Source: Gammaproteobacteria bacterium
Lineage (GTDB): Bacteria; Pseudomonadota; Gammaproteobacteria; Pseudomonadales; Azotimanducaceae
Length of the DNA stretch: 64,000 bases
Assembly: GCA_009843635.1 (NCBI GenBank)
Contig: VYDB01000078.1
Span: 63,656-127,655, forward strand
Reading direction: 5' to 3'
Of the stretch, positions 17,936 through 48,431 are shown one piece after another. Both the position numbers and the translations under genes were made by a program. The notes below the pieces were generated by a model that searched no databases, was not told where the DNA came from, and saw only the letters and a program-made list of their open reading frames with translations. Each line of letters begins with the position of its first letter. The first letter of the stretch is position 1.

Positions 17936-19867
17936 TCAAGGCGAGGGCGGGACGCCCTCGCTCCGAAATCCTCGGCCGGCGGGCAGGCGGGCTTGGCGAA
18001 CCAAGCCGGCAAAAGCATTGCCATTTAGAACCTGCGCGACGTCAGCGCCCGGCAGCGGCGGGGAGAACAGCACGCCCTGCGCTTGGTCGTAGCCCTCGGC
18101 GCACAGGCAGCGCAACTGCACCCGGTTGCTCACCCCTTCGGCTAGCAGCGTCACATCCAACGCCCCGGCGAAGGCGGCAATGGCCTTGACGATGCCGTGG
18201 CCACCGCCGGGGTCGTCGGCGCGAATGTCGTGGATGATGCTGGCATCCACATTGAGCTGGCTGACCGGGGAGTGCTGAAGATAGGCCAAGGCAGCGTAAC
18301 CGGCGCCAAAGCGGTCCGCGGCTATGCGCACCCCCAAGTCGTGGAGCGCCTGCAGCTTGGGCATGACCCGCTCGCGGCTCTGCGACAGCCGGTACTCATC
18401 AATTTCCAACCGCACCGCGGATGCCTCGAGGCCCGCCTTGCGCAGCCGCGCCTGCAGCTTGTCCGCAAAATCGTCCTGCTCAAGCGCCAACCCCGACACG
18501 TTGACCGAAACTCGGACATCCCCAGCACCGTTGTGGCGCCAGTGAGCCGCCTCCGTAAACGCCTGCTGCTGCACCAAGGCATCGACTTCGCCGAGCAGCC
18601 CGGCATCCTCAGCGGCAAGCAGGAAGTCGTCCGGCTTTAGCAGCCCCCGCGTCGGATGGCGCCAACGGACCAAGGCTTCCACGCCGCAGACTTGGCCGCT
18701 GGCGAGGGACACCTGCGGCTGGTAGTAGACGACAAACTCTCGTCGGGACAGCGCCTTGCGCAGTTCCCGGGCCGTGGTCAGGCGCCGCATCACACCCCGA
18801 TTCATGGTTTCGGAGTAGAGCCGGTAACCATTGCCGCCCTGATCCTTGACGTGGTACATCGCGATGTCGGCGGCCTCAATCAGGGCATCGCCCCGCTCCC
18901 CGGCCTCGGGATACAGGGCGATGCCGATGCTGGCGCCCACCCGGAGCCGACGCCCGTCGATGACGAAGGGCGCTTCGAAGCAATCCAGAATCTTGCCGGC
19001 GATGCGCTCGACCGCCCCGCGGCTGCGCACGCTGGGCACCAGCAGCGTGAATTCATCGCCTCCGAAGCGCGAGAGGGTGTCACCTTGGCGCAAGCAAGCC
19101 CGCACCCGTTGGGCAACGGCTCGCAGCAGGCGGTCGCCCACGCTGTGGCCGAGCCGGTCGTTGACGCGCTTGAAGCGGTTGAGGTCCACAAACATGACGG
19201 CGAGCTTGCGCCGGCTGCGCTCCGCTTGGGTGATGGCCACGCCCAAGCGGTCGTCGAACAAGGTGCGGTTGGGCAGACCGGTCACCGCGTCATGGAAGGC
19301 CCGCGAGTCAATACCCGGTTCTGGACCCTCGCGTTTACTGATGTCGCGAATGGCGCCGCATGTGCCCAGATAGTTCTCCGCCGTGCGTTCGTTGGGGTCG
19401 GCGTAGATGCCTTCGGCCCGCAGTTCCATCCACAGCCCGCGCGGATGGGCAGCGCGGCCACCATCCGCGCCGAGGTGGCTGACCAACTTCAGCGACACGG
19501 GCTGGCCAGCACGACTGCCGGTGCGTCGTTCATCGAAAACGTGGCGGGCAGGGCTGCGGCAGCTCTCATCCACCAGCGCCTCGTAGTGCTGGCCGACCAA
19601 ATCCTGCTGTTGAAAGCCCAGCAGCGTCTCCACACGCCGGTTGATGAAGCGAATGCGGCCCTCGCTGTCGAGCAGATAGATCAGTTCCGGCGAACTGTCC
19701 AGGACGAACCGATGCAAGGCGCCCGCGTCGTCAAGCAGCGCGGCGAAGGCCTCCGCAGTAAGACTCAGGCGCTGTCTTTGGTTCAGGGCGTCCAAGATGC
19801 GCTCCGCCTCCGGATTCCGGCGGACAGCGGATTGGCTCGACTCAATTGGCATTCCGAAATCGCTCAA
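17936..19867 (-). CDS. PAS-GGDEF-EAL cyclic-di-GMP protein, EAL domain degenerate
   Basis: 643 residues: PAS domain (about 52-165; FVLDSSPELIYLLDSEGRI), GGDEF (about 205-365) and EAL (about 380-630), with no membrane segment. GGDEF 269-273 is intact and is preceded by an RQGD inhibitory site at the standard spacing, so it should make cyclic di-GMP and be product-inhibited. EAL 397-399 is present, but the DDFGTG loop is ADRFGAG (second Asp is Arg519), the usual catalytic Lys in LKID is Asn (LNVD), and EGVE is EGVS. The phosphodiesterase is therefore probably dead, perhaps binding c-di-GMP. The gene starts in an ATGA overlap with the NUDIX gene. Confidence 0.88.
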   Translation of the reverse strand: MSDFGMPIESSQSAVRRNPEAERILDALNQRQRLSLTAEAFAALLDDAGALHRFVLDSSPELIYLLDSEGRIRFINRRVETLLGFQQQDLVGQHYEALVDESCRSPARHVFDERRTGSRAGQPVSLKLVSHLGADGGRAAHPRGLWMELRAEGIYADPNERTAENYLGTCGAIRDISKREGPEPGIDSRAFHDAVTGLPNRTLFDDRLGVAITQAERSRRKLAVMFVDLNRFKRVNDRLGHSVGDRLLRAVAQRVRACLRQGDTLSRFGGDEFTLLVPSVRSRGAVERIAGKILDCFEAPFVIDGRRLRVGASIGIALYPEAGERGDALIEAADIAMYHVKDQGGNGYRLYSETMNRGVMRRLTTARELRKALSRREFVVYYQPQVSLASGQVCGVEALVRWRHPTRGLLKPDDFLLAAEDAGLLGEVDALVQQQAFTEAAHWRHNGAGDVRVSVNVSGLALEQDDFADKLQARLRKAGLEASAVRLEIDEYRLSQSRERVMPKLQALHDLGVRIAADRFGAGYAALAYLQHSPVSQLNVDASIIHDIRADDPGGGHGIVKAIAAFAGALDVTLLAEGVSNRVQLRCLCAEGYDQAQGVLFSPPLPGADVAQVLNGNAFAGLVRQARLPAGRGFRSEGVPPSP

Positions 19868-20509: not shown

Positions 20510-21754
20510 CTAGTACCCCGTCAACTCCTTGTAGCCCCGGCCGGCGTCCCGGCCTTGGGCGTCAGTCACCCGAACCAGCCCTTCCCAATAGGTCAGCAGG
20601 GTGTCCATGCGCTGGTCGTTCAGCGCGGCGGCAATTTCAAATCGACGTTCGCCCACCGCCAGCCGCCAGCGAATCGGCCATCTTCTGCCTTCCTCGTCCT
20701 GCCAATGTCCGATCGGCGTCAGCCTGAAGTCGCTGGCCGAGAGGAAGCGCGCCGCGCCGTTGGGATCAATCCAGGCGCCATGATCGTATGGATCCCGAGT
20801 GCCGTCTCGCCGCCGCAGTCGAAACGCCATGACATCCTCGCCGCTGTCGAGCATCAACGCAAACCAATCCCAGCCGACCTGCTCCGGACTAAGGGCGCTG
20901 GTGCTCCACTCCCGGTCCAGCCAGCCCCAGCCGGCAACCGGATGGCGCTCACCATCGATCTTCACATGCCCGCCGGTCCGCAAGCGGGGCGCGGAGTAGT
21001 AGTGGGACGCTTCGCCCGGCCCCTTGGCCGAAAGTCCGCCATCACCCTGCGCAACAAAGCCCTTCTCCGGGCGCATGGCCAGATCCACGGCGATGCCGTC
21101 CGCTGCCGCGCGCAGCGTCCACCCATCCGGAGCCATCACCAACCGCCAGTCCTCGAGCCAAGCCGCAACTGCCCCATCAGCCACTTCGACCCCCGCCAAC
21201 TCTGGATGCCCGCGCGCCATCCGTTCCGCATGGCGATGCGTCTCCGCCTCCACGTCCGTCAGCGCAAAGTGAGCCAAGTAGCCTTGTCCATTACGCCACG
21301 GATCGGCCGGATCACCGCCCGGGAAGAGCGCCCGGCGGAAGAGCGTGAACTGAACTCCAAATTCGCGGGCGCCGGGAGTGGGCGCGCGGTGCGGCCATCC
21401 GGCACACCTGGCGGGTGCGTTGTGGTGGGGTTTGAGGGTGCTGGGGAGCCTTAACAGTGCCGGATGGCCGCACCGCGCGCCCACTCCCTCCATGCGTTCG
21501 AACGGTGTTTCCTGCACGTCAACGGCTTCCAAGGCGAAGGTCAGGTACCACCATTCGCTGCGGAAGTCTGGATGCGCCCCGTGATCCTCCGGAAAACGAA
21601 ACGGGCGGGGGGACGACGCTTGGGCATACCCCTCCGCATCGTCATCCCCGCCGAGCATTCGCCCGACTTGCAAGCCTTCGCCAACGCCAGATTCCCCATC
21701 GACCGGCTCGCCGCCGCAACCTAGGATCGAAACACCCACAATCGCCCACAGCAT
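20510..21754 (-). CDS. AttH/CrtC-like lipocalin-fold lipoprotein, interrupted in frame by a palindromic element
   Basis: 414 residues from ATG 21752-21754, with a lipoprotein signal (MLWAIVGVSILGC, lipobox before Cys13). Motifs HGAHPDFRSEWWYLTF, GEASHYYSAPRLRTGG and GWGWLDREWSTSAL are those of the AttH/hydroxyneurosporene-synthase-like fold. AttH is the substrate-binding partner of AttEFG exporters, and here it follows the ATPase and permease. Residues about 90-127 are encoded by a perfect inverted repeat and have no counterpart in the family: after VQETPFER the chain would normally pass directly to REFGVQFTLFRRAL. The frame is kept, so the protein may still fold with a surface loop. Confidence 0.8.
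   Translation of the reverse strand: MLWAIVGVSILGCGGEPVDGESGVGEGLQVGRMLGGDDDAEGYAQASSPRPFRFPEDHGAHPDFRSEWWYLTFALEAVDVQETPFERMEGVGARCGHPALLRLPSTLKPHHNAPARCAGWPHRAPTPGAREFGVQFTLFRRALFPGGDPADPWRNGQGYLAHFALTDVEAETHRHAERMARGHPELAGVEVADGAVAAWLEDWRLVMAPDGWTLRAAADGIAVDLAMRPEKGFVAQGDGGLSAKGPGEASHYYSAPRLRTGGHVKIDGERHPVAGWGWLDREWSTSALSPEQVGWDWFALMLDSGEDVMAFRLRRRDGTRDPYDHGAWIDPNGAARFLSASDFRLTPIGHWQDEEGRRWPIRWRLAVGERRFEIAAALNDQRMDTLLTYWEGLVRVTDAQGRDAGRGYKELTGY
21374..21488. repeat. 115-base palindromic element inside a coding sequence
   Basis: Two 31-base arms match perfectly as inverted repeats: 21374-21404 (beginning GGGAGTGGGCGCGCGG) and 21458-21488 (ending CCGCGCGCCCACTCCC), around a 53-base GT-rich centre. 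The element lies entirely within the AttH-like gene and is read through in frame on the minus strand (encoding EGVGARCGHPA...APTPG). I found no second full copy in the window. Confidence 0.85.
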
Positions 21755-21768
21755 CCAACCGACGGCCT

Positions 21769-24156
21769 TCAAGCGCTTTCCTCCGGTACCGGCAGGACGC
21801 TGGCGGCAACCGCAGCAGCCAAGCCAAGAGTCATGGGCAACGCCCAATCCGCTGCCGAAATCGACAGCGCCACGCTCCAGCCGAAGGCGCGGGGGTTGAT
21901 CACATCGCAAAGAACCACGCCGATGAACAGCCCCAAGGGCAGCGCCAGGACCACCGCGAACACGCCGAGCGCGCCGCCGCGCATGAGGGCGAGCCAGCGC
22001 TGTTCGGCGGCGCTCAACCCGAGGGCGCGGAGCAGTGCCACGCTGGCCCTTTGATTGAGCCGCAGCGCCATCATCGCGTTGTACAGGCCGGCTACGGCGA
22101 CGATGAGCGCGACCAAGGTGAGCGCCCGGGTGATCGCGAAGGTGCGGTCAAAGATGTCGAGCGCCCCCGCCCGCAGTGCCGCCCGCTGACGCACCACGAC
22201 ATCCGGTGCGGCACCGGCAAGCCAGCGTTCAAGTTCGGCAGCAGACAGGCCGGATAGGCCCAGCCGGTCGTAGTGCAGGGCACCGAAGCGTTCGGCGGCG
22301 GCCTGCGCCTGGACCAGCAGGCGCGGCGCCACGTCGCCGAAGCCGGAAAACTCATGGACGATGCTTAAGGGTTCGCCGCCCACCTCCACCGAGTCCCCCA
22401 CCGACAATCCCAACGCGTTCAGCAAGGCCTCGCTGGCCAAGGCTTGGTCCGGCGCCAAGGCGTGGGCATAGCCGTAACGGGCCGTCTCGGCCACCGTGAA
22501 GTCCGCGTAGCCCACCTGCACGGTATAACCTTGCAGGCGGACGGAGCGCTCGCCCAAGGGCACGGCAACGACGCCGGGATGCGCTTCCCGCAAGGCGTGG
22601 GCCAAGGCAGCGCCCCCTTGATCGTGCAACTCCAGGAAGAAGTCGTGGGCCAGGCGTTGGTCCAGCATGCGCATGAAATCCCGCTCGAAGCTGCCCACCA
22701 TCAGCCCAATGCCAACGCTCGCGCCGACCGCCAGGATCAATGCCCCCAAAGCCACGCCCAAGTCGGCTTCGTGCCAAGTAGCCTCGCGCATCGCCAGCCG
22801 AAACAGCAACCCGTTGCGAGTCGTTGCGGCGGTCCCGTCTGAACTGCCATGCCGGTATCCAACTCCGGTTCGCCGCGCTTCAAAGGCGTCCCGCAGCCAC
22901 CGCAGCAGCGGGCCAACCCAGGCCGTGGCGATCAAGCTCCCCGCCAGCACGGCCAGGAAGCCGCCATAGAGGCCTGTTTCCTCAAGGGTCACGCCAGCGG
23001 CGATCAGTGCCAGCGCAACGACCGCGCCACCCCAACGCACGCCCTTCCTGCCCGCTGGCGGTTGCAGAAAACCCGGTGCGCGGCGAATGAAGGCCACCCC
23101 GGCACCCACCAAGGCGACGGCAAATCCGGAGAAAAGGGCCTTGATGAGAACGACCGCCGACATTTCCATCACCGGCGGCGCGGCGATGCCCGCCATCGAT
23201 AGGCGCAGGAGCAGCGCCGCCAATCCATGGCCGCCAGCGATGCCAACCAAGGTCGCCACCCCAGCCAGTACGCCGATGGCGCCAAGGAAGCCGGCAGCGA
23301 GTTCCCGCCGACTGACGCCCAAGGCCGAGAGCCGGGTCATCAGCAATTGTTGGCGGCGCAGCGATAGCACGCAAATCAGATAGATGATGAACCAAGCCAC
23401 CACCAAGGCGAGCAGCCCCAATGCGCCGCGCGTGAACAGGACGGCGTTGCCGAACTGTTGCTCGGGACGAACGGACGCCACTGGGCGAACCGTCCAACCG
23501 GCCAAGTGCTCGACGTCCGCCGGGAGTCCGGCGGCAAGCCCCGGAAACAGCCTCTCCAACGCATCGCGCACACCCTTGAAAGGCGCCTTGAGCGACAGGG
23601 CGACATAGTCCAAGTGATCCGCTGGACGATCCAATAGCGCCAAGGCGTCACCGATGTCCGCAAACACGGCGTTCTCATGGCCTGCATCCACCACTTCCGC
23701 CACCGTCCAACGCTCACCCGCGAGCTGCAGGACGGCCTTTGGCGCCAGTTCCAAACTGGCATCGGCCCGGATCGAATTGCGCCTTGCCGACGCGCTTGAA
23801 CCCGGCGCCGCCAACCGAAACCCGTCCGCGCCGACGACCTGGTAGCGCCGCCCCGCTGCAACCAGTTGGCCCTGAACGACGGGCGTGATCCATTCCACTT
23901 GGGGCAGCTCGCCCCGGCGCCATTGGCGGCGCAGGTCGAAGTAGTCGGCCATGGTGGCGTCCACCCGCTCGGCGACGTGGGTGACGCCGCGCAGGTGCGG
24001 CGCGGTGCGGGCGCCGAGCTGGTCGCTAACCGCCAGCCCCAGCAGGTGGGTGGCCACCGTCGAGGCCACACCCAAGGCGATGCCCAGCCCGGCGGTCAAG
24101 GTGGCCCAAGGCGTTCGCGCAAAAAACCGGACGAAGCTGCGCAGCAGCAGCTTCAC
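21769..24156 (-). CDS. FtsX-family ABC transporter permease (fused AttF-AttG type)
   Basis: 795 residues with about eight to ten membrane helices. The start is a GTG overlapping the ATPase stop (GTGA, 24153-24156). It has an N-terminal helix followed by a periplasmic MacB-PCD-like domain, a block of helices (LLALVVAWFIIYLICVL, FLGAIGVLAGVATLVGIAGG), a second periplasmic domain and a final FtsX block (LVALIVAVAGLYNAMMALRL). This duplicated layout equals AttF plus AttG in one chain. Such systems extract lipids or export small molecules at the inner membrane. The lipoprotein partner follows 15 bases downstream. Confidence 0.85.
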   Translation of the reverse strand: MKLLLRSFVRFFARTPWATLTAGLGIALGVASTVATHLLGLAVSDQLGARTAPHLRGVTHVAERVDATMADYFDLRRQWRRGELPQVEWITPVVQGQLVAAGRRYQVVGADGFRLAAPGSSASARRNSIRADASLELAPKAVLQLAGERWTVAEVVDAGHENAVFADIGDALALLDRPADHLDYVALSLKAPFKGVRDALERLFPGLAAGLPADVEHLAGWTVRPVASVRPEQQFGNAVLFTRGALGLLALVVAWFIIYLICVLSLRRQQLLMTRLSALGVSRRELAAGFLGAIGVLAGVATLVGIAGGHGLAALLLRLSMAGIAAPPVMEMSAVVLIKALFSGFAVALVGAGVAFIRRAPGFLQPPAGRKGVRWGGAVVALALIAAGVTLEETGLYGGFLAVLAGSLIATAWVGPLLRWLRDAFEARRTGVGYRHGSSDGTAATTRNGLLFRLAMREATWHEADLGVALGALILAVGASVGIGLMVGSFERDFMRMLDQRLAHDFFLELHDQGGAALAHALREAHPGVVAVPLGERSVRLQGYTVQVGYADFTVAETARYGYAHALAPDQALASEALLNALGLSVGDSVEVGGEPLSIVHEFSGFGDVAPRLLVQAQAAAERFGALHYDRLGLSGLSAAELERWLAGAAPDVVVRQRAALRAGALDIFDRTFAITRALTLVALIVAVAGLYNAMMALRLNQRASVALLRALGLSAAEQRWLALMRGGALGVFAVVLALPLGLFIGVVLCDVINPRAFGWSVALSISAADWALPMTLGLAAAVAASVLPVPEESA

Positions 24157-27453: not shown

Positions 27454-27712
27454 AGGGAGCCGCTGATCAAGTCCCGGAAGCTCAGAGGAGCCTGGCGGGC
27501 GTGATGGCAAGGCGCGGCGAAGCCGTGTGGCAGGCCCCACACAATGAGCCGCAACGCGGCCAGCGCGGTCGCCAGGCCCTCCCGGAGGGCGTCTCACGAC
27601 GCCCAGCGACGCAAATTCGCCGTTTTGCGGACCACCATCACCCCACCGCAACATCTTCTCAGTCCTCAACCAGTGAGGCGCTGAGCGAACGGGACTTGAT
27701 CAGCGGCTCCCT
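27454..27712. repeat. Inverted repeat pair spanning the sbcB 3' end
   Basis: Arms 27454-27485 and 27681-27712 are inverted repeats matching at 29 of 32 positions. A 23-base perfect core (starting AGGGAGCCGC) and a 6-base outer match (GCTCAG) are separated by a mismatched GAA. The right arm encodes part of the exonuclease C-terminus (EPLIKSRS). The left arm lies just upstream of the transporter ATPase start. The span resembles a small element with terminal inverted repeats, or an inverted copy of the sbcB end. Confidence 0.75.
27576..27604. other. Two overlapping, mutually exclusive hairpins
   Basis: GCCCTCC (27576-27582) pairs with GGAGGGC (27584-27590). Alternatively GGGCGTC (27587-27593) pairs with GACGCCC (27598-27604) around a TCAC loop. 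The two share 27587-27590, so only one can form. They lie in the 215 bases between sbcB and the transporter ATPase gene. There is no T-run, so a simple terminator is unlikely. Confidence 0.5.
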
Positions 27713-32680: not shown

Positions 32681-32739
32681 GGAGTTTCGCGACAGCGAAA
32701 CTCCAATCGAACTTGCAGCCCCAAGGGGCTGCAAGTTCG
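32681..32739. repeat. Twin hairpin (REP-like) element
   Basis: Two perfect palindromes lie side by side. GGAGTTTCGC/GCGAAACTCC (32681-32704) has a GACA loop; 32708-32739 has 15-base arms (CGAACTTGCAGCCCC) with AA in the centre. They sit between divergent genes, so they are not terminators. The GAGTTTCGC stem recurs at 48408-48431. Confidence 0.75.
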
Positions 32740-48386: not shown

Positions 48387-48431
48387 CGCCGCCTTCGGCG
48401 GCGTGATCGAGTTTCGCTTGCGCGAAACTCG
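48387..48431. repeat. Second twin-hairpin (REP-like) element
   Basis: CGCCGCC-TTC-GGCGGCG (48387-48403) is followed by CGAGTTTCGC-TTGC-GCGAAACTCG (48408-48431). The second stem shares GAGTTTCGC and a 4-base loop with the element at 32681. It lies between the tRNA and the phosphoesterase gene. Confidence 0.75.

Follow-up and report, generated by a model that had tools for sequence, protein, structure and literature searches.

The AttH-like gene and its palindromic insertion

The window, i.e. the whole stretch of 64,000 nt that was analyzed, carries on its minus strand a gene for an AttH/CrtC-type lipoprotein (20510–21772; PF07143, PF17186), located downstream of genes for a MacB/FtsX-like permease and an ABC ATPase. 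The open frame as listed spans 20510–21910 (minus strand); the start codon is probably the TTG at 21770–21772, which follows a GGAGG motif, and a congener (L049) has no ATG at this position. The frame holds the longest perfect inverted repeat of the window, in which two arms of 32 nt (21374–21405 and 21457–21488, plus strand) are 100% complementary (32/32 nt) and enclose a center of 51 nt (21406–21456). The longest inverted repeat found in 30 random sequences with the same dinucleotide make-up had 15 nt. The palindrome described in the first-pass annotation is real and perfect, only its dimensions had been given as 31 and 53 nt for arms and center.

An alignment of 11 copies revealed that the center is conserved between copies at its ends (plus strand: ACACC.GGCGGG at 21406–21417 and GAGCCTTAACA at 21446–21456). 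The palindrome of 115 nt is followed by a tail, TCCATGCGTTCGAACGGTGTTTCCTGCACGTCAACGGC (21489–21526, plus strand), which resembles the tails beside copies in the same genome and in two congeners, G002 and G005, and which recurs in a deletion scar in G002; in many copies about 37 nt of tail follow the palindrome. The entire in-frame insertion (21374–21526, minus strand, outer limits approximate) has a length of 147–153 nt or 49–51 codons, a range that mirrors the uncertain length of the original turn, and is missing from AttH of four congeners; the compared stretch comprises 99 nt in the short-turn congeners versus 246 nt here. The earlier estimate of about 38 added residues was too low, because the insertion includes the tail.

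The flanks of the insertion match the CrtC N-terminal domain (PF07143) and the lipocalin-9 domain (PF17186), and the earlier reading of an unbroken frame with normal protein on both sides held. In AttH of G001, G003, G005, and G006 a short turn links the two strands SEWWYLT...EFGVQFT and the segment is absent, as the proposed alignment of homologs was expected to show; the solved homolog 2ICH, which is also the best PDB match of the fold, likewise has a short turn without the segment. In the nearest species (G002, G004, and G007) the loop is already longer and holds other inserts. AttH of G004 is 39 nt longer than the short form, and G002 and G007 contain in the same turn, in frame, another hairpin repeat, GGAGTTTCGCGC.AGCGAAACTCC, followed by a second hairpin. 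This repeat is itself dispersed, with 33 matches in the genome under study (G000), 40 in G002, 117 in G004, 17 in G007, and 42 in G008. Copies of the form GGAGTTTCGCG..AGCGAAACTCC are also present in the window at 32681–32704 and 48408–48431. In G008 two AttH pieces lie at contig ends and both break at the turn, which would fit a repeat at this site.

The attH gene is under purifying selection, with a dN/dS of 0.12 versus G002 (shared columns) and of 0.12–0.17 versus the three nearest species. In the AlphaFold2 model the residues of the insert (about 51–103) have a pLDDT near 30, the remainder is mostly well predicted, and well-predicted strands (38–50 and 104–115) border the insert. In this model the insert forms a disordered loop that connects two strands, and the lipocalin fold is otherwise intact.

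A dispersed repeat found in one genus

The palindrome belongs to a family of palindromic repeats that is dispersed over the genome and, as far as searched, restricted to one genus. The genome of origin is a draft of 152 contigs (4.49 Mb, 96% complete). It contains 12 matches to the 115-nt element, with identities of 74–100%, and a split copy on contig C58; a covariance model built from 11 copies retrieved 13 copies, and with one long form the total is about 14. The genome search for the arm that had been suggested earlier thus led to copies spread across the genome. The same model identified 45 places in G005, 11 in G007, 2 in G002, and one weak match in G006, while four other congeners and 49 genomes from other genera yielded no match. 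An exact core pattern, applied to 84,980 species with one genome each, matched only in two congeners, G005 and G007 (record sets JAPPHD, RHO1_bin_72, and JAJEIQ, p16x65bins.14). Searches of viral contigs, phages, and plasmids yielded no match, so that no candidate carrier of these types emerged. As far as searched, both the sequence and the host range of the family are new; the kind of element, a genomic parasite able to make proteins longer, is already known.

The arms vary between copies, yet they stay complementary within each copy. Across the copies 95.6% of the stem cells are paired, 12 of the 30 stem pairs have changed on both sides, and the pairing exceeds that of all 500 shuffles (0/500 as high) and of all slid controls. 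In the genome of origin the arm identity is 0.92 within a copy versus 0.81 between copies. This matching would be best explained if one arm were copied onto the other via a folded strand, a process that has been discussed for coding palindromes of other systems (PMC6649704).

Two of the 14 copies in the genome of origin are inside genes. By ORF evidence the others are intergenic, about six of them between convergent gene ends, and one is located between genes for tRNA-Leu and tRNA-Met (names read from the sequence). The orthologous sites of close relatives are often empty (e.g., L101 in G002, L105 in G007 and G004, L107 in G007), and some of them hold other, unrelated hairpins. At L106 the insertion is common to the genome of origin and G002, with the same flanks (L106/L117). 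At L111 the copy in the genome of origin is truncated, a full copy is present in G007, and G002 has retained only the outermost arm bases and the tail; this remnant is a deletion scar. At L103, too, G002 and G004 have remnants of arm and tail. The suggested check for target duplication was carried out at junctions versus empty sites: no consistent duplication could be read from them with confidence, and a TAGCTTA repeat at L101 is confined to one side.

The second in-gene copy, on contig C132, is inserted in frame in gspG (PF08334, PF07963), between a start codon conserved with sister species and the cleavage motif RGFSLIELMVV. Given this start, which is the probable one in the genome of origin, the GspG leader has 53 residues versus 14–27 in G008, G007, and G004. 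The attH and gspG copies use the same reading frame and encode similar peptides, VGARCGHPALLRLPSTLKPHHNAPARCAGWPHRAPTPG and VGARCGRPAPLRLPRTLERHHSAPAWRAGCPHRAPTRG. Of 57 copies, 52 have this frame open, but three other frames are often open as well, which gives no grounds to propose that the frame is specially maintained. The G002 leader comprises 82 residues (31 with a shorter alternative start) and contains hairpins of a GAGGGC repeat in frame. Sister species thus contain different hairpin repeats in frame at both coding sites, the attH turn and the gspG leader. Among the copies examined in G005, G007, and G002 no clear in-gene case was found; the candidate frames were upstream extensions or had no domain support.

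Probable spread of the element and alternative explanations

Taken as a whole, the data make it very probable that the palindrome is a non-autonomous, MITE-like repeat that has spread through the genus and was inserted in frame into a turn of the AttH-like protein. Judging from copy number, empty sites, and differences between species, the element appears to move. It consists of long arms, a variable center, and a short tail, and it would be moved by an enzyme acting in trans. In attH it would have entered a β-hairpin turn of the lipoprotein and persisted, since its length is divisible by three, one of its strands can be read through in that frame, and a disordered insert is tolerated by this turn. 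Translation of the new codons is most likely, and the insert is presumably neutral for the protein. Arm-from-arm copying (template switching, folded single strand), together with recent movement, probably explains why the arms have stayed perfectly matched. An autonomous relative with the same arms was not found in the genome of origin (a draft, 96% complete), where every arm match is paired within about 204 bp, so that no candidate parent emerged from this search.

Some copies have a long form, in which the enclosed stretch of about 90 nt folds as one hairpin plus a three-way junction. This form is represented by L099:1857–2061 in the genome of origin (contig C58:31357–31560), by contigs C214 and C326 of G002, and by several copies in G005; the loci L248, L250, L251, and L258 have this form. 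About 20 copies in G005 have the long-form centre without the inner right arm. In a draw of 390 genomes of the order, which included few members of the genus, the long form was found in the genome of origin only (0 of 389 others). The long-form center is 94–99% identical between species, although the silent sites of attH are saturated between G000 and G005 (dS about 1.9), and this near-identity therefore points to recent spread or strong constraint. Of all features of the element, this long form, conserved and multi-branched, is the most unusual. It is conceivable, but on balance improbable, that a single mobile unit has the element as its short form and carries this branched center in its long form, that it moves via folded single-stranded DNA or RNA with the aid of a not yet recognized enzyme, and that short tolerant coding stretches are repeatedly occupied by unrelated hairpin repeats.

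It is unlikely that the element, including its attH copy, is a functional structured RNA or a regulatory hairpin (terminator, attenuator) and persists on account of an effect on expression. The positions between convergent gene ends, the strong base pairing, and the conserved branched center of the long form would suit such a role. However, the corresponding sites in close relatives are empty or occupied by unrelated hairpins, and Rfam covariance models gave no match of weight for the short or the long form. In addition, the wobble pairs, a possible means of telling upkeep of the arms in RNA from upkeep in DNA, have no significant strand bias: the raw counts (100 A.C versus 14 G.T) had hinted at strand-specific selection at the RNA level, but the distinct events (20:10, p = 0.10) did not bear this out.

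Even less probable is a REP-type repeat that the genome's own RAYT transposase would mobilize. G000, G002, and G007, all of which carry the element, encode a Y1_Tnp protein of about 215 amino acids, but G005, the genome richest in copies, has no Y1_Tnp match. In G000 the RAYT gene is followed by CGAGGGCGGGACGCCCTCG hairpins, i.e. by the GAGGGC repeat and hence another repeat, and no copy of the element adjoins it. Furthermore, the element, with 115 bp plus tail, is far longer than the 20–40 bp of REPs (PMC3733652). The GAGGGC repeat is most common in G002 and G007, both of which have RAYT, and G005 lacks this repeat along with RAYT; G004 and G008 carry the repeat as well and have no RAYT match. 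RAYT was consequently rejected as the mobilizer: it is tied to the other repeat, and G005, the richest in copies of the element, yielded no match to it. The CGAGGGCGGGACGCCCTCG hairpin occurs 49 times in the genome of origin, among other places directly after the RAYT gene on contig C121, and up to 349 times in congeners; one REP-like hairpin of this type lies in the window at 17942–17960, at the end of ORF 17936–19867 (minus strand).

A local event in attH, be it a hairpin that arose through template switching or duplication or the usual variation of the loop in this protein family, can be practically dismissed: the loop length does vary among related species, but the same sequence is present at 13 unrelated places, at several of them with the same tail, and therefore the attH insert came from elsewhere. 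Equally negligible is an assembly or read artifact, a concern raised in the first-pass annotation and understandable for a draft of 152 contigs and for palindromes, which are prone to misassembly, since the copies have diverged and yet each is perfect or nearly so, the sequence upstream of attH is common to congeners, and the separate assembly G002 contains the orthologous L106/L117 insertion.

Relation to known in-frame palindromic repeats

Palindromic repeats that lie in frame have been described in Rickettsia, Wolbachia, enterobacteria, and Neisseria (PMC2229807; PMC2759123; PMC10969869), and REPs within genes in several species (PMC3733652). The earlier view that they are rare outside Rickettsia was overstated, as such elements are reported from several other bacteria (PMC2229807; PMC2759123; PMC3733652). 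The element described here works like these repeats, and it is no RPE or REP member by the tests made. The RPEs comprise 105–146 bp, and nearly half of them are located in genes (Ogata et al., 2000, as reviewed in PMC2229807 and PMC10969869). The likeness to RPEs proposed earlier holds for behavior: the size (115 bp plus tail), the long stem-loop, the many copies, and the in-frame insertion into unrelated genes (attH, gspG) at seemingly tolerated sites with reuse of one frame are all comparable. It does not extend further, since only 2 of the 14 copies are in genes, the element is GC-rich and confined to one gammaproteobacterial genus, and its arms stay matched, whereas RPE arms were reported to lose identity (PMC6649704). 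No sequence relation was seen with the exact core pattern, a comparison that leaves room for distant likeness.

ERIC/RU-1, RU-3, YPAL, and Correia elements are similar in that they are stem-loops of about 100–170 bp, which are mostly intergenic and occasionally in frame in genes (PMC2229807; PMC2759123). Their sequences and hosts differ, and most of them have target duplications or TA termini (PMC2229807), neither of which was shown here. REP/RAYT elements share the hairpins downstream of genes and, at times, within coding sequences, and two Xanthomonas species are reported to have different REPs at about the same site in recB (PMC3733652), which parallels the different repeats in attH and gspG. 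However, REPs are 20–40 bp long and many have a RAYT partner (PMC3733652), unlike the 115-bp element, which has no linked RAYT. As in MITEs, terminal inverted repeats with arms of about 30 bp delimit a short non-coding unit, here with a tail outside one arm; unlike for MITEs, no related autonomous element with the same ends was found in the draft genome of origin.

The list of palindromic repeats that enter genes in frame is short, and the element extends it beyond Rickettsia and enterobacteria by a genus-specific family. Its close relatives permit a comparison of before and after, with empty sites, a shared insertion, and deletion scars all visible. The different hairpin repeats in the attH loop and the gspG leader of sister species point to a repeated filling of tolerant protein sites, which makes repeat-driven protein lengthening testable.

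In G005 the tail belongs to a larger unit, which measures about 250 bp, has an AT-rich left part, and is sometimes arranged in tandem. These composite units (e.g., L044, L069, L075, and L085) have the left part TTGACATAAT, share YTYKCATG ends, and form tandem arrays; their flanks also enclose a second palindrome with unrelated arms. The window itself contains another inverted repeat of 32 nt (27454–27485 and 27681–27712), the arms of which are 91% complementary and 195 nt apart.
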